The notes beneath the pieces were generated by a model, which was not told the origin of the DNA, made no database searches, and saw nothing but the letters and a program-made list of their open reading frames with translations. Positions 3,263 through 37,384 of a stretch of DNA of 41,084 nt are shown here, in pieces (within the stretch, counting starts at the first letter, position 1; each line of letters begins with the position of its first letter). The stretch covers positions 1-41,084 of IMG/VR virus record IMGVR_UViG_3300025141_000240; one strand, given 5' to 3'. The stretch comes from a virus. The translations under genes and the position numbers were made by a program.

Positions 3263-3641
3263 ATGACATTGAAGAAGAGAAAAGAAGACGGAAAAAAATA
3301 AAGAATATAAAAAAGAATGGCATAAAAGAAAGTTAGTAGAAGATGTTGAATATAGAATAAAAAGAAACTTACAAAGAAGAATTAATCACGCAATAAAAGA
3401 CTATAAAAAATCTGCTCCTACTATGGAATTGGTAGGATGTTCAGTAGAAGATTTAAAAAAACAATTTAGAGACGGTATGAGTTGGGAAAACCACGGTCGT
3501 TATGGATGGCATATGGACCATATAAAGCCTTGTGCTTCTTTTAATTTAATCAATAAAGAAGAACAAAAAGAATGTTTTCATTATACAAATTTACAGCCTT
3601 TACGGGCTGAAAAAAATCTAAGCAAAGCGGCAAAAATCTAA
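3263..3641 (+). pseudogene. Decayed HNH homing endonuclease (frameshifted, N-terminus degraded)
   Basis: From 3275 to 3641 one frame encodes the C-terminal part of an HNH endonuclease: WHMDHIKPCASFNL supplies the first His and the D-H pair, and NLQPLRAEKNLSKA the Asn and terminal segment. This frame has no ATG, GTG or TTG upstream. The only plausible start, ATG at 3263 (MTLKKRKEDGKK), runs into TAA in another frame at a run of seven A (3292-3298). The Cys4 N-terminal zinc domain present in the intact relative at 24270 is absent. It is probably a dead homing endonuclease. A start at 3423 would give only the last 72 residues. Confidence 0.65.
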
Positions 3642-5720: not shown

Positions 5721-5880
5721 CTTTCTCCCCCCTTTTTTTCTTTTTAACCATTTGTTCAAAAGAAATTAGACCATTCCCAAGAGTTGGTCTTCTTATCAAT
5801 GGCATTAGAGTTCCGTGATGTAAAACATTTCCACCTACCGCAGAACTAACTACTTGTTCTCTAATTTCCTTTAATTTCAT
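5710..5880 (-). CDS. 56-residue MKLKEIR-leader protein
   Basis: ATG at 5880 follows an AAAGG site and overlaps the end of the preceding gene by 20 nt. The product begins MKLKEIREQVVSSAVGGN, continues TLMPLIRRPTLGNGLISFEQ and ends in a basic tail. The N-terminal pattern is shared with the genes starting at 2568, 3901, 4734 and 5720. Its end overlaps the next start, so it sits in a tightly coupled run. Function unknown. Confidence 0.6.
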   Translation of the reverse strand: MKLKEIREQVVSSAVGGNVLHHGTLMPLIRRPTLGNGLISFEQMVKKKKRGEKDET

Positions 5881-6130
5881 TTGGTATAACCTTTATTTTG
5901 CGATCTCTGCTTAAGACGAATTTTAACTGATCTAAAACATTGTCAATAGCATTGACAATGAGTAAGCTTGATTGTGAGAATTTATTATATATATCGATTA
6001 GCTTATTAAACTTATCTCGCGTGATTTCTTCTATATCAAGAAAGTTCACGAAGACATTTGTTGGATCTACTGGTAGTTCCAAGTTAAGTGTTTTTTCATC
6101 AAAATTTTTAAAATTTATTTTAATATCCAT
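5861..6130 (-). CDS. Hypothetical protein
   Basis: 89 residues (MDIKINFKNFDEKTLNLELP...), mixed alpha/beta, with no signal peptide, membrane segment or known motif. It is the first gene after the TAAAGATA element at 6144-6151, with a 13-nt A-rich leader, and is coupled by overlap to the 56-residue gene that follows. Function unknown. Confidence 0.7.
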   Translation of the reverse strand: MDIKINFKNFDEKTLNLELPVDPTNVFVNFLDIEEITRDKFNKLIDIYNKFSQSSLLIVNAIDNVLDQLKFVLSRDRKIKVIPNEIKGN

Positions 6131-6143
6131 TTTACTTCTTTAA

Positions 6144-6151
6144 TATCTTTA
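6144..6151 (-). promoter_or_regulatory. Putative late promoter element TAAAGATA
   Basis: The minus strand reads ATGTAAAGATATTAAAG in the short gap between two genes, 13 nt before the ATG at 6130. It shares the consensus with the elements at 2098, 2574, 8366, 8403, 20093 and 37186. Confidence 0.5.
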
Positions 6152-6166
6152 CATTAAAAAAGTTGT

Positions 6167-18040: not shown

Positions 18041-18585
18041 GTGGATATTGAAAAAAGAATAGAAAATGTACTAATTCTCGATGATGAAAAATCAATCCTT
18101 GAAATGCTTAAGGGTGTTTTAAGAATTAGTGGGCTTAAAAATATTTTTATCTTTGACAGTATAATGGATGCTTGCAAATACATTAAACAAAATAAAGTAG
18201 AGTTTCTTATTATGGATTATAGTTTAAAAGAAACAAAAAATGTAATAGAGAATGTTTTGTTAAAAAATTTAAAGCTTTAAATCCTTATTCACCTATGCTT
18301 GGAATGACTGGATTTTCAGACAAAAGGCAAGAAATGTTAGAAGAGAGAGTTCATTACTTTTTAGAAAAACCTTTTTCTTCAAAAGAATTTATTTTAGTAA
18401 TAGAAAATCTTTTATCCTTAAGAGAAGTTTATGAAGAGTTAGAAACAGCAAATTCTATCATTCAAGCACTATCAAAATCAGTAGAAGCTAGAGATTCTTA
18501 TTTAAAAAGGCATTCGGCGCGAATTGCTAAATACTCTTCTAAAAGAAACCGCTCACATAAATGGCGTTTGCAAAGAATATATTGA
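18041..18585 (+). pseudogene. Response-regulator receiver plus truncated HD-GYP start, frameshifted
   Basis: GTG 18041 opens a receiver domain: acidic pair DD at residues 14-15 and phospho-acceptor Asp 59 in FLIMDYS. At the A6 run 18262-18267 the frame ends in NLKL and stop, whereas the -1 frame continues KFKALNPYSPMLGMTGFSD with the conserved Thr and then the Lys in YFLEKPF. After the receiver comes SKSVEARDSYLKRHSARIAK, the opening of an HD-GYP domain, which stops at 18585 before the HD residues. The site reads A AAA AAT, a possible -1 slippery heptamer. More likely it is a decayed acquired host gene. Confidence 0.65.
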
Positions 18586-18610
18586 CAAATAATTCTATTC
18601 ATGTTATAAT
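18582..18610 (+). promoter_or_regulatory. Consensus sigma70 promoter (TTGACA-17-TATAAT)
   Basis: Both boxes are perfect with a 17-bp spacer (18582-18587 and 18605-18610). It starts the small operon 18641-20048, which ends at the hairpin 20079-20150, and is a typical strong early promoter. Confidence 0.85.
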
Positions 18611-19330: not shown

Positions 19331-19554
19331 TGGGAGCTAGTAGAATAGGTTTCAACCTATTTAGAAAAGCAGGTTGGAGAAATTTACGTTTTGCTATAAA
19401 AAATAAGCGTTCAATTAAACATTTATGGGCAGATACATTCATTCAAATATGGTGTTGGATCGTAAAACATGAAATATATAATAGTGGTATTGATAACGAT
19501 CCTCCAGAATGGGCTTATAAAAGATGCCATCAATATATAAGAGCTAAAAAATGA
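19330..19554 (+). CDS. Hypothetical basic protein
   Basis: 74 residues. ATG 19330 is preferred to the upstream GTG because it overlaps the stop of the membrane peptide (TAATG). The protein is rich in Arg, Lys and Trp (GWRNLRFAIKNKRSIKHLWA), with an amphipathic helix that might touch membrane. It is followed by an overlapping DUF5662-like gene. Confidence 0.65.
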   Translation: MGASRIGFNLFRKAGWRNLRFAIKNKRSIKHLWADTFIQIWCWIVKHEIYNSGIDNDPPEWAYKRCHQYIRAKK

Positions 19555-20048
19555 AATATTTAACTTACGGTTGGTATCTAACGAAACATAGATGTTTTGT
19601 TATGATGGCTTGCTTTAGAAGAGGGCTTATATGGAGAGGACTTAAACACGATTTAAGTAAATATTCTCCTACGGAATGGTCTGCTTATGCTCAAAGATTC
19701 TATGGAAAAGAAAAGAAAACTAATAGAGACAAGACAGGATACTATCCTCCTAACGCAACATCTAATCCTAAATATAGAAAGGCTTGGCTTCATCACGTTC
19801 ATAAAAACGATCATCATTGGCAACATTATTGCTTAGTAAATGATGCTGATACTGGTGGAGTTATTGTTTTACCGATGTCAAAGAATGCAGTAAAAGAAAT
19901 GATTTGCGATTGGATAGGAGCTGGTAAAGCTCAGAAGAATCCAACCACTTGTAAAGAATGGTTTCATGTAAATAAAGTACATATGCATCTACATACAGAC
20001 ACAGAATTATTAATTAGACAATATTTAGCGAAATGGTTTATTATATAA
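19551..20048 (+). CDS. DUF5662-like phage protein
   Basis: 165 residues. The signature LKHDLSKYSPTEW and the His-rich HHVHKNDHHWQHY match a phage family (DUF5662) in which these His and Asp residues probably bind metal; activity is not established. The last gene of the operon behind the promoter at 18582, ending 30 nt before the hairpin at 20079. Confidence 0.75.
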   Translation: MKYLTYGWYLTKHRCFVMMACFRRGLIWRGLKHDLSKYSPTEWSAYAQRFYGKEKKTNRDKTGYYPPNATSNPKYRKAWLHHVHKNDHHWQHYCLVNDADTGGVIVLPMSKNAVKEMICDWIGAGKAQKNPTTCKEWFHVNKVHMHLHTDTELLIRQYLAKWFII

Positions 20049-20078
20049 AATAGATTAATTACAGAATCAGTACATCTC

Positions 20079-20150
20079 AACCCTTATATATGTAAAGATA
20101 TAGGCAAGGAATTCTATCTTACCTAATTTTACATCTATAAGGGTTTTTTT
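20079..20150 (+). promoter_or_regulatory. Long hairpin: terminator plus late-promoter / RBS-sequestering switch
   Basis: The left arm AACCCTTATA (20079-20088) plus ATGTAAA (20090-20096) pairs with TTTACAT (20128-20134) plus TATAAGGGTT (20136-20145), with one mismatch, and is followed by T. The right arm contains AAGGG (20139-20143), the ribosome site of the gene at 20151. The left arm contains the late element TAAAGATA (20093-20100). Read-through RNA would terminate or hide the ribosome site. RNA started at the late element lacks the left arm and leaves the site free. T4 genes e and I-TevI use this design. Confidence 0.7.
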
Positions 20151-20357
20151 ATGGTAAGTAGTGTTAAAGATGAGGCTCATCGTTTTTCTATCAAAGGGAA
20201 AGATTATGAAGTTTTTTTTGCGGAAGATGGCTATTCTGAAATTTATGAAGTCGATAATCCTGGTGAGACAGGATTCATTTTTTCTGAGTTAAAAAACTTA
20301 ATCCTATTCATAAATAATATCACAGATATAGCTGAAACTAAACTTGAAGAAGGTTAA
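20151..20357 (+). CDS. Small hypothetical protein under hairpin control
   Basis: 68 residues, acidic (FFAEDGYSEIYEVDNPGETG), with no motif. Its AAGGG ribosome site lies in the right arm of the hairpin at 20079-20150, so late-only translation is expected. It is the first gene of the late block with sigma, terminase and head genes. Function unknown. Confidence 0.7.
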   Translation: MVSSVKDEAHRFSIKGKDYEVFFAEDGYSEIYEVDNPGETGFIFSELKNLILFINNITDIAETKLEEG

Positions 20358-20358
20358 A

Positions 20359-20979
20359 ATGAAAATTACTGATGTAGTAAATAGTGTTCTATCTGAAGAG
20401 CCAAAGACTCAGGATAAAAATAAAAAGAACTTAAAAGTTTTTTATAAAACAGATATTTTAATTCAAGGGTTTCCTGAAAGAAGAGCAAAAGAAGAGGAAC
20501 CAGTTAAAGCTCTAGAGGTTAAGAAGCCTGGGACGGAAGCTGATGTAACAGCACCAACTTCTGAATCAACAATAGTAGAAGAAATCTTAAAGACATCTAA
20601 TCAAGGTGAATTGACAATCCCTGCGAATGAAGCAGATAATATACAAACTCTTGAAGATTTAATTGATTATCTTGGAGATAACAAAGGAGGTGGCAAGCCA
20701 ATTATTAATGATTTAGTGGAAGAAGTAATCTTAGCTGTTGCAGGTGTTGGAGCAAAACCATTAGAGAATATAGTTAATGAAGGTGATAAGATTTTCATAG
20801 ATATTGACTATGGAAAAGAAAAATCAGATTCTGTAGGGCTTAGAGTAAATAAACAAAGTGGTAGTACAGCGATGTCTATATCAATGAAAAAGGACAATAA
20901 ACTTATTCCTGGAGAATTTGACATAGAACAACTCAATAAACAATTAGTGTATTATCGTAATACGTTATTTGGTAGTTAA
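20359..20979 (+). CDS. Leader-bearing hypothetical protein
   Basis: 206 residues from ATG 20359 (GAAGG site), preferred over the TTG at 20344. The N-terminus MKITDVVNSVLSEEPKTQ resembles the other leaders and holds LSE at residues 11-13. A low-complexity Pro/Glu/Lys linker (KPGTEADVTAPTSESTIVEE) precedes a folded C-terminal half. The stop overlaps the sigma gene start (TAATG). Function unknown; it may be packaged. Confidence 0.65.
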   Translation: MKITDVVNSVLSEEPKTQDKNKKNLKVFYKTDILIQGFPERRAKEEEPVKALEVKKPGTEADVTAPTSESTIVEEILKTSNQGELTIPANEADNIQTLEDLIDYLGDNKGGGKPIINDLVEEVILAVAGVGAKPLENIVNEGDKIFIDIDYGKEKSDSVGLRVNKQSGSTAMSISMKKDNKLIPGEFDIEQLNKQLVYYRNTLFGS

Positions 20980-21647
20980 TGTCTGAGTTAAAGGAGACTA
21001 AAAATTACTTTAACGAAAAAGAGTTTCAAGCAATGCTCTTTGAATATCAGGATGTTACTATCACCCACCCTGATGATATTAAGCACGTTCTGTCTACTGA
21101 TCGTGTATTAGAAGTAAAACTTATTAAAGAAATAAAGAAAATAGTTAATGCGATAATTATAGTATATAGATATTATATATTTGAAGATTATGATGATCTT
21201 ATGCAACACGGATTGAATGCCTGTTACACTAATTTCATGAAATTTAAACCAGAGAAGGGAACTGCATTTAATTACTATAGTATTATTGCAAAAATTAGTT
21301 TGTTAAACTATACAGATAGAAAAAAGAAACACAGGAATCATCAGAATATAGAAGATTATAATATGATATTAGAAAATAGGGAAGAAGTTAATTATGATCT
21401 ATTTTTCGACAACCTAGAAGATACTTTGTCTGGAATTATAGATGAAAATTATTTGGGGAAGCAAAGAGGTGAATTCAATAGAATCGCTGTTCTAATTATA
21501 GATTATTTAAGAAAAACTAAGAAGTTTATAAGTAAGAGTGATCTATATACTTGGGGCCGTTCTTATGGAATTAAGAACAATCAAATACGTGGCTTTGTAA
21601 ATGAATTAAGTCAATACAATGCAGAAATATTTGAAGGTATAAGATGA
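20979..21647 (+). CDS. Late-transcription sigma factor, T4 gp55-like
   Basis: 222 residues. The central part YDDLMQHGLNACYTNFMKF, then FNYYSIIAKISLLNYTDRKK followed by KHRNHQ, has the shape of sigma region 2 in T4 gp55: an acidic DDLMQ core-binding helix and an aromatic/basic -10-recognition helix. There is no region 4, also as in gp55. In T4 this protein directs RNA polymerase to late promoters with the sliding clamp and gp33. Here the recognised element is probably TAAAGATA. Identity rests on pattern and place next to the terminase genes. Confidence 0.7.
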   Translation: MSELKETKNYFNEKEFQAMLFEYQDVTITHPDDIKHVLSTDRVLEVKLIKEIKKIVNAIIIVYRYYIFEDYDDLMQHGLNACYTNFMKFKPEKGTAFNYYSIIAKISLLNYTDRKKKHRNHQNIEDYNMILENREEVNYDLFFDNLEDTLSGIIDENYLGKQRGEFNRIAVLIIDYLRKTKKFISKSDLYTWGRSYGIKNNQIRGFVNELSQYNAEIFEGIR

Positions 21648-22141: not shown

Positions 22142-24013
22142 ATGAATCAATCAACAAGTAACTTTATAGATAGTATAGAAAACAAGATAAAGAAATATCT
22201 AATACCTGTTACACTTACTGAAGCTATTAACCACATGACTGAACAAATCATTATGACTCAATACAACACTGGTAAAACAGAAAGAGTTGATATGGGAGTC
22301 GAATGGTTTTTGTGCAAAAATTCTCCGCTATATTTTTTAGTCAACTATGCTTGGATAGATTTTCCTGGTACTGGGACCATACCATTTAAACCTTATTATT
22401 TTCAAATAGAAGCATTAAAAGATTTTGAGAGTTTTCAGAAGATTGTTGTAGAGAAGACAAGACAATGTGGTATGTCTACAGTAACTTCTCTTTATTGTTT
22501 TTGGAGAGCTAATTTTCACGAAGCAGAAGAGATAGATGTTGTTTCTCTTAAACAATTAAAGGCTCAAGCTTTTGTAGCTAAAATGGATTCTACAATTAAG
22601 AAGATGCCAGTATTCTTACAAACAAGAATACTTAGAAATAATACACAATTTGTTTCATTTGAAAACGGCTCAAGAATTCTTTCTGAAAGCCAGTCAGATA
22701 ACGCAGGACGTTCTGATTCACTTTCTTTATTAGTTCTTGATGAAGCAGCGCATTATCGTTCTGATAGAATGGTTCGCGGGATTATTGCTTCTTCTCAACC
22801 TACTCTAGGTAGAACAGGTGGAAAATTTGTTATGATCTCAACTCCTAATGGAGTAGCTGGAGCTGGATCTTATTACCATGAACAAGTTGTATCAGCAAGA
22901 AGTGGACTTGAAAATGATACAAAACTTATTTCTATTGATTGGTGGGAAGTTCCTGATGTTACTGGAATTCCTGGTCCACAAAAAGGTTATAATCAAAGAC
23001 TTCAAGAAGCTATAAAGCAAAATTATTATAATCACGAAGCAATAAAGAAACAATTTCAAGATTTCTTTATACCAATAGCAGAGGATGCTTGGAGAGACAA
23101 TCCGTGGCTTAAAAAACAAATGGACGATCTTCAAGATATTCTTTATAAACAAGAAGTTCTTCATAGTTTTATTGTTGGAGAGCATCAAGTATTTAATGAA
23201 GATGTTCTTAAAAGAGTTATGGCTGCTAGTACTGAACCAATATCTAAGAATAAGCTTGGCAAAAATAGAATAGATAACCTTTGGATCTGGAAGAATCCAA
23301 TACCTAAACATAGATATATTCTTGGTGCTGATGTTTCAACTGGAACAGGAAAAGATTCAAGCTCTATTCAAATAATGGATGTTGAAACTTACGAACAAGT
23401 AGCTGAGTATAAAGGTTTTATATCAACGAAATTGTTTGGTAGATTTATTAAACAAGTAGCTCAATATTATAATCAAGCTTATGTAGTAATAGAATGTAAT
23501 GGTATTGGCGAAGCTGTATTTAATGAAGTATACTATAATGATAATGATCCATATCAAAATGTCTTCAAGCAATTGAAGAAGAAGAATAACATCTCACGTA
23601 TGACAGGATGGATTACAGATACTAAAACTAGAAAATTAATAACTAACGAATTAATAGACTGGTTTATTGTTGATGAATTATGGGATGAGTTTAAAGTATA
23701 TTCTAATCGTTTATCTTATGAAATGTCTACCTGGGTTTGGGATGGGACTAAGCCAGATCACGCAGATGGCGCACACGATGATACGCTTATTGCTATGGCA
23801 TTATGTGTTTATCTAAGAAATAAGGTAGAAGAAGCTGGTGAATCATTTCTTATTAATGATGCTGGCGATATCATAGAATATGATAGTAAAGATAATCTTG
23901 ACGAAAGTGGAAATGATGCATTCGATGTTTTCTTCGGCGAGGATGAAGAAGATGTTTATGAAAAAAAACATGGAATGACAGAAGATCAATATAAATGGGT
24001 AATTAATAAATGA
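22142..24013 (+). CDS. terL: Terminase large subunit, T4 gp17-like
   Basis: 623 residues. ATPase domain: adenine-binding region near 85-95, Walker A-like TRQCGMST (106-113), Walker B LLVLDEA (near 197-203) and coupling motif around STPNG. Nuclease domain: ADVSTGTGKDSS (first Asp, near 396), VVIECNGIG (Glu) and DGAHDDT (last Asp, near 541). The protein packages DNA through the portal and cuts the concatemer. The element GTAAGATAAT lies just before the ATG, with no Shine-Dalgarno sequence. The last codons overlap the next gene. Confidence 0.93.
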   Translation: MNQSTSNFIDSIENKIKKYLIPVTLTEAINHMTEQIIMTQYNTGKTERVDMGVEWFLCKNSPLYFLVNYAWIDFPGTGTIPFKPYYFQIEALKDFESFQKIVVEKTRQCGMSTVTSLYCFWRANFHEAEEIDVVSLKQLKAQAFVAKMDSTIKKMPVFLQTRILRNNTQFVSFENGSRILSESQSDNAGRSDSLSLLVLDEAAHYRSDRMVRGIIASSQPTLGRTGGKFVMISTPNGVAGAGSYYHEQVVSARSGLENDTKLISIDWWEVPDVTGIPGPQKGYNQRLQEAIKQNYYNHEAIKKQFQDFFIPIAEDAWRDNPWLKKQMDDLQDILYKQEVLHSFIVGEHQVFNEDVLKRVMAASTEPISKNKLGKNRIDNLWIWKNPIPKHRYILGADVSTGTGKDSSSIQIMDVETYEQVAEYKGFISTKLFGRFIKQVAQYYNQAYVVIECNGIGEAVFNEVYYNDNDPYQNVFKQLKKKNNISRMTGWITDTKTRKLITNELIDWFIVDELWDEFKVYSNRLSYEMSTWVWDGTKPDHADGAHDDTLIAMALCVYLRNKVEEAGESFLINDAGDIIEYDSKDNLDESGNDAFDVFFGEDEEDVYEKKHGMTEDQYKWVINK

Positions 24014-24863: not shown

Positions 24864-26801
24864 ATGTTAGTCAATGGTAAGGAGATACTACCTCGTCCAG
24901 GACAACCAGAATCAATTCAATCTCAAATAAATAAATTAGAAAACTTAAAGCCCGATCTTAAGTCAGAAACTGAACCAAAGAAGGGTGAAATTTATATTAC
25001 TGATGATGGAATGAGTCAAGTAGGTTTTAGTTTATTTGATAAGCAAGATGATATAGGCAGAGAAAGAAAGATCCGCTACGATTACTACAAAGAAATGGAT
25101 AATTCAGAGTTTATTCATAGAGCCTTAGAGATAGTGGCTGATGATTCTACTCAGATGAATCCAGAAGGTAGCGCCATAAAAATCTATTCAGATGATGAAG
25201 AAGTAAAAACTTTATTGACAGAATTATTTAACGAAAAGCTTGATATGAATAATGAGCTTTGGTCTATAGTTTTTGAAACTTGTAAAGCTGGTGATAACTT
25301 CTATGAGGTAGTAGTTAATGATTATAAGAATCCAAAAAATGTTATCTTTCTCAGATATTTAGAGCCAGAGAAAGTAGATAGAATAGAAGAGAATGGTAGA
25401 CTTTCTTATTATACATATAAAACTCAAGAGAAACCAAAGGATGAAAAAGAAGCTAGAAGATATGGTTATGAACAAGGTGATGAAGTAAGATATAAATTAC
25501 AACCTTGGCAAATAATTCACTTTAAATTAGAGAACAAAGGTTTTATTCCTTATGGAGCAAGTCTGTTATATCCTGGATTGGCGACATTCAGAAGACTTAA
25601 TCTTTTGGAAGATGTAATGATTGTTTATCGTCTTTCCAGAGCACCTGAAAGAAGAGTATTCTATATAGATGTAGGAAATCTTAATAAGGTAGAAGCTAAA
25701 AGATTTTTAGAGAAAGTAAAGAATTCTTATAGATCTTCATCTTTTATAGATGAAAATGGAAATATTAACAAGAAAGCTAGAATGCTTTCTATTACAAATG
25801 ATATATTTGTTCCCGTTAGAGAAGGGCAACAAGGAACGAGAATTGAAACATTACAAGGTGGTCAGGCGCTTCATAATATTGATGATATGAAATATTTTAG
25901 AGATAAAATATTAAGAACTATGAACATTCCACCTGCTTATATGGGTGATGAGTCGGATAGAAGTAGAGGAAGTTTATCTCAATTAGACATTAAATTCTCC
26001 CGTTTCATTGAGCGTATTCAAACTCAAATTATTAAAGGTCTCAATAAAATCGCAGCTTTGGAACTTTTCTTTGCTGGTTACAAGAAAGAAAAGCTGAATG
26101 ATTTTGAGATTGAACTAACTCCACCATCTAACATAAAAGAGCTTACAGAAATTGACCTTATGGGTCAAAAGATGAATCTGCTTGCTTCTATACAAGGACT
26201 TAATATTTTTAGTAATCAATGGATGCTTAAGAATATACTTAAGCTTTCTGATGCTGAGATTGTTGATATAGAACTTTATAGAAGACTTGAAGCTCAAAAT
26301 GCGCCTCCTGGTGAAAAGGTTCCAGGAGCTATAGGGCTTCCTGGAACAGGTGCAGAAGCTCTTCCTGGAGAAGAAGGCACTCCAGGATTACCAGCTCCTG
26401 AAGGTGGTGAAGCAGGAGTTACTCCACCAGAAGAATTACCAGCTGGCCAAACTCCAGAAGTTGGAGCTACTCCAGAAGAGATAGTTGCTGCAACAATAAT
26501 GAAAAATTTAGGGAAGGAATTTATTATGGAAAACCAAAAAGACTTCTTCAAAGTAATTAAACATATTAATGAGAAAAATAATGAATCTCCAATTAAAACT
26601 TTTAATGAATGGAATCAATTGAAAGAAGACTTGGGAGAAATTTTTGCAAAAGAAGAAACTGTACCTAATACAAATAATATAAGAAGACAATTTATTATTA
26701 ATGAAATGGGTGGATTAAAATTTGAGAACGGTGAAGCAGCGAAAGTTGAGCTTTATGATCAAAAGGATTCTGATAAAGTTAACACCATAGTTTTGGGCTA
26801 A
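24864..26801 (+). CDS. Portal protein, T4 gp20-like
   Basis: 645 residues. Portal-family features: the N-terminal clip/wing region (RKIRYDYYKEMDNSEFIHRA), WQIIHFKLENKGFIPYG, the stem helix region EDVMIVYRLSRAPERRVFYI and the crown part MNIPPAYMGDESDRSRG. The dodecamer forms the DNA entry vertex and prohead initiation point. Unusual is a Pro/Gly-rich insert at about residues 476-535 (EALPGEEGTPGLPAPEGGE), followed by a C-terminal extension with RRQFIINEMGG, a possible gp21-type site. Confidence 0.9.
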   Translation: MLVNGKEILPRPGQPESIQSQINKLENLKPDLKSETEPKKGEIYITDDGMSQVGFSLFDKQDDIGRERKIRYDYYKEMDNSEFIHRALEIVADDSTQMNPEGSAIKIYSDDEEVKTLLTELFNEKLDMNNELWSIVFETCKAGDNFYEVVVNDYKNPKNVIFLRYLEPEKVDRIEENGRLSYYTYKTQEKPKDEKEARRYGYEQGDEVRYKLQPWQIIHFKLENKGFIPYGASLLYPGLATFRRLNLLEDVMIVYRLSRAPERRVFYIDVGNLNKVEAKRFLEKVKNSYRSSSFIDENGNINKKARMLSITNDIFVPVREGQQGTRIETLQGGQALHNIDDMKYFRDKILRTMNIPPAYMGDESDRSRGSLSQLDIKFSRFIERIQTQIIKGLNKIAALELFFAGYKKEKLNDFEIELTPPSNIKELTEIDLMGQKMNLLASIQGLNIFSNQWMLKNILKLSDAEIVDIELYRRLEAQNAPPGEKVPGAIGLPGTGAEALPGEEGTPGLPAPEGGEAGVTPPEELPAGQTPEVGATPEEIVAATIMKNLGKEFIMENQKDFFKVIKHINEKNNESPIKTFNEWNQLKEDLGEIFAKEETVPNTNNIRRQFIINEMGGLKFENGEAAKVELYDQKDSDKVNTIVLG

Positions 26802-30177: not shown

Positions 30178-30206
30178 CAAAAAGGGGCTATTATAGCCCC
30201 TTTTTT
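30178..30206 (+). terminator. Intrinsic terminator
   Basis: GGGGCTA-TTA-TAGCCCC flanked by A and T runs, just after the zinc-finger gene stop. It separates the protease operon from the scaffold gene. Confidence 0.85.
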
Positions 30207-31139: not shown

Positions 31140-31158
31140 GTAAAAAGCAAAATACATT

Positions 31159-31207
31159 AAATAAAGCAACCCAACTTCTTATAAGAAGGGTTGCTTTATT
31201 TTTTTAG
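31159..31207 (+). terminator. Intrinsic terminator after the scaffold gene
   Basis: AATAAAGCAACCC pairs with GGGTTGCTTTATT around an inner CTTCTTATAAGAAG palindrome, followed by a T-tract. It separates scaffold and capsid transcription. Confidence 0.85.
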
Positions 31208-31283: not shown

Positions 31284-32828
31284 ATGCCTTATATGAGTAA
31301 AGATGCAAGAATTGCTGAAGAGCAACGTCTTACAAACAGGTGGGATTGGCTTACTGAAGATATTGAAGATTACGAACAAAAGTATAACGTTTCGTTAGTA
31401 CTTGAAAATTCATACGATCAAATGTTAGCTAACCAACAAGTTTCTGAAGGCTGGCTTGAAAGTAACGTTCTTAATGAAGATGAGCAAGAACTTAATGAAG
31501 CACCTACAATTTCAACAGATGCTGGAAGTAACCTTATTCCTAGGATCTTGTTTCCCATTATTAGGCGTGTTTATCCTACCCTTATTGCTAATAAGCTTGT
31601 TTCAATACAACCTATTCAAGCAAGAACTGGTGTTATCTACTATATTAGATATGACTTTACAAATACCAAGGGTGGAATCACAGCTGATGATGAGTACACA
31701 GGTGTAATTCAACAAGGATCTCCCGCGTATTCCAGTTGGTATACAAGTGAGAAGATCGGACCTTTTACTACTACTATTGCTACAACTGGAGACAGTACAG
31801 TTATTGATTGTGGAACTGAAATTTCTGCTTTCTTGGGTGATACCCTTTACAATGCTCTCGGCGCTCTTCAGTTCTCTCTCAAGAGAATCGAAGTTTATAA
31901 TAATGCTGATGGTACATTGTTTTCAACTACTATGCAACCTATGGTCGCTGGTGGTGGATCACCAACATGGTCTGGCGAATATGACACATATTATGATGTA
32001 AGTGCTGGCGATATCTATCTTAGAGATGTTGCTGATACTAAATCAGCTTGGGTTGGTGGTGAAGCAGTAACTGTATACTTAGTATACAATCAAGAAGCAT
32101 CAGACGATATTCCTGAGATGGAATTCTCAATCAGCAGCGAGACTGTTGAAACAACCGAACGTAAATTGAAAGTACGTTGGACTAAAGAAGCCGAGCAAGA
32201 CATGAGAGCTTATCACAAGATTGATGTAGAAGGAGAACTTGTGAAAGTTGCTTCTATGGAAATGAACTATGAAATCGACCGTGAAATCATAAGTTTTATT
32301 GGTGATCAAGTACAATCTTCATTGTCTTTCTTGCACGACTGGACATCTGATTCCCCTAATACGGGTAACAATGCAGCTGGAAACTATCTTGATAGACACA
32401 GAGCTTTGACTCAAAAAATCTATCAAGTAAGCGCAAAGATTGCGTCTTACAATAGACAAGGACCAGCGTCTTGGGCAGTTGTATCACCACAAATTGGAGC
32501 AGTATTTAACATGCTTCCTGACTATAAGGGTGAAATTGCTGCTGGATCATTTAATGTTTATGAAGCTGGAGCTTTGGGAAGTGGACTAAAGATTTTTGTT
32601 GATCCTAACAGAACTAGTGATGAAGTTCTTCTTGGATACAAGAGTTCAAATAGTACCTACGGTGCTGGAGTTGTTTACGCACCTTACGTAAACTGGGTAT
32701 CTGGTCTTGTGACAGATCCTGATAACTTCAATAGTATTCGTGGATTCTTCTCTCGTTACGCTCTACACAAAGTAGTTCGTGGACAATGGCATTATGGTAA
32801 AATTACCATAAGCAACCTTAGAATATAA
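31284..32828 (+). CDS. Major capsid protein, T4 gp23-like
   Basis: 514 residues (T4 gp23 is 521). The N-terminal 72 residues form a charged propeptide ending in VLNE (65) and ELNE (72); T4 gp23 is cut after Glu65. The mature start would be DEQELN... or APTISTDAGSN. Typical HK97-fold segments follow: LIPRILFPIIRRVYPTLIAN, the loop EYTGVIQQGSPAYSSWYTSE, and C-terminal strands VLLGYKSSNSTYGAGVVYAP and SGLVTDPDNFNSIRGFFSRY. GGAGG site. The leader contains GAAAAGATAAAAT and TAAAGGTA, late-promoter-like. Confidence 0.93.
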   Translation: MPYMSKDARIAEEQRLTNRWDWLTEDIEDYEQKYNVSLVLENSYDQMLANQQVSEGWLESNVLNEDEQELNEAPTISTDAGSNLIPRILFPIIRRVYPTLIANKLVSIQPIQARTGVIYYIRYDFTNTKGGITADDEYTGVIQQGSPAYSSWYTSEKIGPFTTTIATTGDSTVIDCGTEISAFLGDTLYNALGALQFSLKRIEVYNNADGTLFSTTMQPMVAGGGSPTWSGEYDTYYDVSAGDIYLRDVADTKSAWVGGEAVTVYLVYNQEASDDIPEMEFSISSETVETTERKLKVRWTKEAEQDMRAYHKIDVEGELVKVASMEMNYEIDREIISFIGDQVQSSLSFLHDWTSDSPNTGNNAAGNYLDRHRALTQKIYQVSAKIASYNRQGPASWAVVSPQIGAVFNMLPDYKGEIAAGSFNVYEAGALGSGLKIFVDPNRTSDEVLLGYKSSNSTYGAGVVYAPYVNWVSGLVTDPDNFNSIRGFFSRYALHKVVRGQWHYGKITISNLRI

Positions 32829-32850
32829 TTAGTTTTTAAAAACTAAATAG

Positions 32851-32879
32851 AAAGCCTCCCATTTGGGAGGCTTTTTTTA
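32851..32879 (+). terminator. Bidirectional terminator between convergent genes
   Basis: AAAGCCTCCC-ATTT-GGGAGGCTTT plus a T-tract ends capsid transcription. The A-rich left flank lets it also stop leftward transcription from 33287. Confidence 0.88.
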
Positions 32880-37140: not shown

Positions 37141-37185
37141 ACACTATTATAAATTTTTCATTAATTTTCTTCAACTATTTTTAAG

Positions 37186-37193
37186 TAAAGATA
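37186..37193 (+). promoter_or_regulatory. Putative late promoter element TAAAGATA
   Basis: TTAAGTAAAGATAAAATAAG occurs 11 nt before the ATG at 37205, in the divergent gap after the leftward island. It serves the structural genes to the right. Confidence 0.6.
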
Positions 37194-37204
37194 AAATAAG
37201 AAAT

Positions 37205-37384
37205 ATGAACAGATTAATAACGATACGTCCTACGGACAAAACTAGAAGAATTCTAAGCAAGAAAGAAGATATGTCTTGTGAAGTTGAAATATTGCGTGAA
37301 GGTATATTCGAAGGAACTATAGTAAATATGACTTCTTCTGGTAAGTTTGAAATCAGATTGACTGAATTAATAGAGGTTAAGTAA
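37205..37384 (+). CDS. 59-residue hypothetical protein
   Basis: ATG 37205, product MNRLITIRPTDKTRRILSKK then a beta-rich part (EVEILREGIFEGTIVNMTSS, FEIRLTELIEVK). The stop overlaps the next start (TAATG), which supports translation. It is the first gene behind the late element. Function unknown. Confidence 0.65.
   Translation: MNRLITIRPTDKTRRILSKKEDMSCEVEILREGIFEGTIVNMTSSGKFEIRLTELIEVK

Follow-up and report, generated by a model that had tools for sequence, protein, structure and literature searches.

The window analysed here, a 41,084-base IMG/VR virus record whose contig is partial, encodes a T4-type portal, capsid and prohead protease according to PHROG and Pfam searches, and belongs to an uncultured T4-like virus of bacteria from a distant lineage of the T4 superfamily. 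No near match to positions 15000-39000 was found in 50,697 phage records, and the best match of the portal among named phages, in Microcystis phage Mel-JY01, is 33% identical. The site of interest, on the plus strand, separates an upstream operon from the block of terminase, portal and capsid genes. The upstream operon ends with a DUF5662 gene (19551-20048; Pfam 3.2e-36; phrog_20637, PHROG 1.8e-22), and approximately 30 nt past its stop codon begins a long hairpin. This is followed by orf68 (20151-20357), the first gene of the late operon, which gave no PHROG or Pfam match, has no assigned function and is 78-81% identical in the relatives L002 and L003. Downstream on the same strand are o206 (20359-20979), also without an assigned function, a gene for a putative gp55-like late sigma factor (20979-21647), the terminase large subunit (22142-24013; PHROG 1.2e-36), the T4-type portal gp20 (24864-26801; Pfam Portal_T4 2.2e-83) and the T4-type major capsid protein gp23 (31284-32828; Pfam Gp23 5.3e-57). 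A candidate sigma70-type early promoter (18582-18610; TTGACA-17-TATAAT with TG), which agrees with the consensus at 12/12 positions, lies 1.5 kb upstream of the hairpin on the same strand and reads towards it; if it functions as predicted, read-through RNA across the hairpin is likely. Among related loci, the blast matches to terminase, portal or protease are split by approximately 1 kb of extra sequence in L018, L019, L021, L022, L087 and L088, possibly reflecting introns or homing-gene insertions.

The hairpin is formed by an inverted repeat with 18-nt arms (20079-20096 and 20128-20145) that are 94% complementary and separated by 31 nt. The 17-bp, one-mismatch stem described in an earlier note on this DNA is borne out, as the stem consists of 17 pairs and a single T-C mismatch (20089/20135). 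Atop it sits an inner stem, GGCAAG/CTTACC (20103-20123; pairing 20103-20108 with 20118-20123), which has one C-A mismatch in the window, is intact in L002 and contains one G-U pair in L003. The right arm holds the Shine-Dalgarno (SD) sequence AAGGG (20139-20143), where UAAGG matches the anti-SD, and the same note had correctly placed it 7 nt before ATG 20151. The intervening seven T (20144-20150; five T in L002 and L003) thus form the spacer between SD and start codon on the 3' side of the stem, and may in addition act as the tail of a weak terminator. When the window was searched for arms of 17 nt with no more than one mismatch and a loop length of 3-45, this hairpin was the only one, and an equally good one occurred in 3/100 dinucleotide shuffles of the window. 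The fold of 20060-20180 has an energy of -26.5 kcal/mol (z -2.07; 7/200 shuffles were as good), and an Rfam search returned six chance-level matches, all far under the gathering score.

Nested in this hairpin is a candidate late promoter. The earlier note had located TAAAGATA at 20093-20100 within the left arm; the position is right, but because the paired arm ends at 20096, only TAAA of TAAAGATA belongs to the stem and GATA lies in the loop, so that the box straddles the two. It is better written as the 9-mer GTAAAGATA (20092-20100), which on sequence grounds is a good candidate for a late promoter. The window contains 17 copies of TAAAGATA against 6.9 expected, and GTAAAGAT was found in the 100 bases upstream of 13/182 starts against 2.1 expected, using automatic gene starts from five related sequences. 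The capsid gene offers support for the late box that is independent of the hairpin: in the 100 bases upstream of this gene, the sequence closest to GTAAAGATA is an exact copy at 10/17 loci, has one mismatch at 6/17 and two mismatches at one (L019), and is therefore near-exact in 16/17. The window's own capsid promoter, GTAAAGGTA, located 48 nt upstream of the gene, is among the one-mismatch cases, which singly are not significant (11-21 of 200 letter shuffles as good). The 17 loci include near copies (L014-L017; L021/L022), and the count does not take in L008 and L009, which are nearly the same as the window. The pattern ACCCTTNNANNNGTAAAGATA was found in 40 stretches, of which 37 are new loci (L043-L079). 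A search of the open-access literature found no paper on TAAAGATA as a late promoter. By analogy with T4, the late transcription start is predicted 6 nt past the box, at 20106.

Late boxes were also seen in several other settings. A second box on the minus strand (6152-6144) occupies the loop of a hairpin formed by CTTTTTTAA and TTAAAGAAG (6120-6165), just before ATG 6130 of the gene at 5861-6130; opening of the SD region of this gene is computed to cost 8.3 kcal/mol in read-through RNA, the third highest of 112 starts, versus 1.2 kcal/mol when the RNA begins at the predicted late start. Among the fetched loci that were searched, none had a homologue of this gene at E < 0.001. At 2538-2582 of the window, two facing late boxes on opposite strands, approximately 35 bp apart, form an inverted repeat. 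At other places a box nearly abuts the ATG, with a predicted leader of approximately 5-7 nt without an SD (window 37185-37207, G001 13027, L011 16266, L012 8836), and in L012 (4951-4992, minus strand) each of two tandem 18-bp repeats before one gene contains a late box. A copy of GTAAAGATA also lies within the terminase gene, at its 3' end (window 23886, G001 27936, L006 10201, L085 6867, L086 7732), 115 nt before the next gene start in the window, G001 and L006, where it is a possible internal late promoter. Canonical intrinsic terminators are located between or after structural genes (window 30180-30200, 31150-31200, 32849-32876), that at 31150-31200 being followed by a late-box variant ahead of the capsid gene.

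The computed energies indicate that the hairpin would bury the ribosome site of orf68. We defined the opening cost as that of freeing the ten bases at -14 to -5 before the start codon, with 200 upstream bases included. For ATG 20151 in read-through RNA this is 13.5 kcal/mol, which ranks first among 112 starts of the window and G001 combined; its G001 orthologue ranks second (10.8 kcal/mol; median 2.8). The mean predicted pairing probability of the SD in read-through RNA is 0.999. From the predicted late start, opening is computed to cost 3.0, 3.4 and 2.4 kcal/mol in the window, G001 and L006, respectively, and in late RNA it is nearly constant for starts 3-9 nt past the box. The same method applied to T4 gene e gives a drop from 13.5 to 3.6 kcal/mol, and elsewhere in T4 it gives read-through costs of 15.0 (gene 49) and 11.7 kcal/mol (I-TevII), and 0.6-7.2 kcal/mol at 19 other T4 starts. 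As in the gene e class, the ribosome-binding site is thus predicted to be paired in read-through RNA, and the late RNA would lack the 5' arm, the predicted start at 20106 lying downstream of it. As counter-evidence, the predicted pairing of the start codon in the window rises from 0.50 in read-through RNA to 0.83 in late RNA, a consequence of possible pairing between CUUACC and the start region.

Comparison with two close relatives, represented by L002/L006 and by L003/L005/G001, reveals uneven conservation of the two arms. The left arm (20079-20096) is invariant, and together with its flank, TCTCAACCCTTATATATGTAAAGATA, it is identical at 26/26 positions in both relatives, whereas only 46/99 and 49/102 four-fold degenerate sites of three downstream genes match (46-48%). 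The genes just upstream differ among the relatives while the hairpin persists. The right arm has two substitutions, each an A to G change that turns U-A into U-G and so keeps the pairing; the L002 right arm has an additional one-base insertion. The contig 3300002518_000033 is identical to the window in its hairpin sequence and was not counted as independent. With three distinct sequences, compensatory double changes were seen at 0/23 pairs, so pairing is not proved by covariation, and we set covariation aside as support.

A sister lineage (L085/L086; sigma 63%, terminase 59%) has a different hairpin at the same junction. There, CCCACTTTTCTAC is followed by CCTTATATAAAGTAAAGGTA, the end of which continues into GTAGAAGAGTGGG and a run of seven T. 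This forms a canonical terminator (-21 to -23 kcal/mol, T7) whose loop and right arm contain the late box. The SD lies outside this terminator, and its computed read-through opening cost is 2.7-3.0 kcal/mol. Common to both lineages is CCTTATATA, which precedes the box and in L085/L086 is located in the loop; the promoter core seems to be shared, but the surrounding hairpins differ in their pairing. Since the SD is not hidden in L085/L086, the conserved principle appears to be insulation of early from late expression and not SD hiding as such. Ten contigs carry a relative of the sigma gene. The nested arrangement is present in six, namely three window-clade sequences, one near-identical contig and two near-identical sister contigs, and L034 is cut before the site. 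In the remaining three (L033, G007, G009), no late box or such hairpin was found before the orf68 homologue, and so the function is not essential across the wider group. G007 and G009 instead have the 9-mer GTAAAGATA inside the orf68 homologue, among its first codons (L087 1561-1585; L092 reverse 3304-3326). Pattern searches with the box plus downstream bases (11 stretches) and with CCTTATATA plus the box (15 stretches) gave only unrelated matches beyond the two lineages.

The gene at 20979-21647 appears to encode a remote homologue of gp55, with a match to sigma region 2 and to the profile of PHROG late sigma transcription factors. All three members tested match that profile, phrog_234, with a best value of 3.2e-5, and the L033 relative matches it at 6.3e-4. 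By single-sequence tests the assignment is weak: Pfam Sigma70_r2 scores of 9.5e-4 and 3e-4 both fall below the cut-off, and an hhalign comparison with T4 gp55, although co-linear from residue 1, has an E value of 0.029 and a probability of 1.7%. An AlphaFold2 model from three sequences (mean pLDDT 44.6) was uninformative, as was a Foldseek search with it, which gave no match at E <= 0.001. A tblastn search of named phages with the sigma found none, a scan of genome contigs found no relative, and a PDB sequence search gave chance hits only. In all three close phages the start codon of the sigma gene overlaps the o206 stop codon as TAATG, and o206 in turn begins one or two bases past orf68. This overlap, together with the lack of a clear SD at the sigma gene, invites translational coupling. 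The blocked ribosome site of orf68 could in that case silence the late sigma factor itself, so that only sigma-started RNA escapes, giving a self-opening positive feedback on late expression, which in the sister lineage would have been remade as a promoter nested in a terminator; we regard this extension as speculative and rather unlikely.

How the hairpin would act can be read in more than one way. The earlier note had suggested that the hairpin and T tract may also terminate the early operon, and it is conceivable, if on balance doubtful, that termination is the main role, with the late promoter overlapping an intrinsic terminator and SD hiding a by-product of where the right arm lies. The GGG followed by seven T and the closeness to the upstream stop codon agree with such a role, as does the strong terminator with a late box inside it at the same place in L085/L086. 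We scored terminators with a formula combined with modern energies, which is usable as a rank only, and on this scale the window (+6.2) is 10th of 2375 T-rich sites scanned, L085 and L086 reach 24.8 and 28.8, and L006 (-11.5) and G001 (-7.7), which keep only five T, are negative. Termination by the window hairpin is thus marginal. Furthermore, complete termination would deprive the late sigma gene of transcription; a site resembling an internal promoter, at 20611, was considered for this gene, and it is absent in G001 and partial in L006. An open-access literature search found no paper on late promoters nested in terminators.

The uneven conservation of the arms raises a different reading, namely that the promoter alone matters, the left arm being an extended late promoter and the right-arm pairing functionless. 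An invariant left arm is what would be expected were DNA, as promoter, the conserved thing, and the lack of compensatory changes and the presence of CCTTATATA in L085/L086, there in the loop, point the same way. We nevertheless hold this to be improbable, as a 17-bp, one-mismatch partner for the left arm is rare by chance, as shown by the shuffles, and both right-arm substitutions retain U-G pairs. In addition, CCTTATATA is found at only 4/32 distinct late boxes, all at this junction, and is therefore not a general promoter need. That the near-perfect inverted repeat overlaps a promoter could also reflect a DNA-level palindrome, either a regulator operator or a cruciform, but the 31-nt spacer, the asymmetrically conserved arms and the fact that the sister lineage has another repeat, tailed by T7, at this position make this highly improbable.

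Evidence from sequence, ranging from the hairpin with its box and buried ribosome site through the computed energies and the conservation to the sigma-like gene and the terminator of the sister lineage, suggests that the feature is probably an early/late insulator hairpin with a nested late promoter, which in the window would act mainly by burial of the ribosome site. We propose that host-sigma70 RNA polymerase transcribes the early operon from approximately 18610 into 20079-20150, and that the read-through RNA would fold into the 17-bp hairpin, burying the orf68 SD, while the T tract ending the stem may terminate part of the early transcripts. Late in infection, polymerase carrying the phage gp55-like sigma factor would start from GTAAAGATA near 20106, and the resulting RNA, without the left arm, could not fold and would be elongated and translated, opening the orf68-o206-sigma-terminase-portal operon. 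In L085/L086 the same insulation would be achieved by termination instead of SD burial. The start site, its timing, the translation block and the action of the sigma factor on the box are inferred.

This mechanism is already known from T4. In the account of gene e given in PMC3014915, late promoters are nested by the left arm and the SD lies in the right arm, so that the long early RNA is blocked and the short late RNA is open; the change that we computed for gene e (13.5 to 3.6 kcal/mol) closely resembles that in the window (13.5 to 3.0). Of the T4-like logic claimed in the earlier note, the late box and the gene e-like geometry are supported, by the capsid-gene promoters, the near-identical energies and the conservation found here, and the stage-specific switch would follow by analogy. 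Two points differ from that reading: with a gp55-like sigma gene in the downstream operon, this is not an isolated late gene as in T4, and SD hiding as such is not the conserved principle. T4 gene e is a single lysis gene, whereas the window hairpin heads an operon with sigma, packaging and structural genes. The ribosome-binding sites of T4 soc, 49, I-TevI and I-TevII and of Aeh1 mobE are likewise described as sequestered on early or middle RNA (PMC3014915, PMC2988022), but these hairpins shield single genes inside early operons, several of them homing endonucleases. T4 late transcription, as outlined in PMC2988020, uses gp55, a diverged sigma region 2 protein, at single-box 8-bp late promoters. 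The window resembles this system in its single-box promoter and its putative sigma region 2 protein; however, its box, GTAAAGATA, differs from the T4 box, TATAAATA, and its sigma homology is remote.

The novelty lies in the lineage and its box, in the location ahead of an operon for sigma and packaging proteins, and in the swap of mechanism from one sister lineage to the other. The gene e logic would thus extend to a distant, uncultured lineage of the T4 superfamily with a different late box, where it is placed at the early/late border, ahead of a sigma gene. Two lineages have built different hairpins round one promoter, in one case apparently burying a ribosome site and in the other forming a terminator. 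This suggests that the selected property may be the insulation of late genes from early read-through, which can be tested by comparative genomics and simple reporters.
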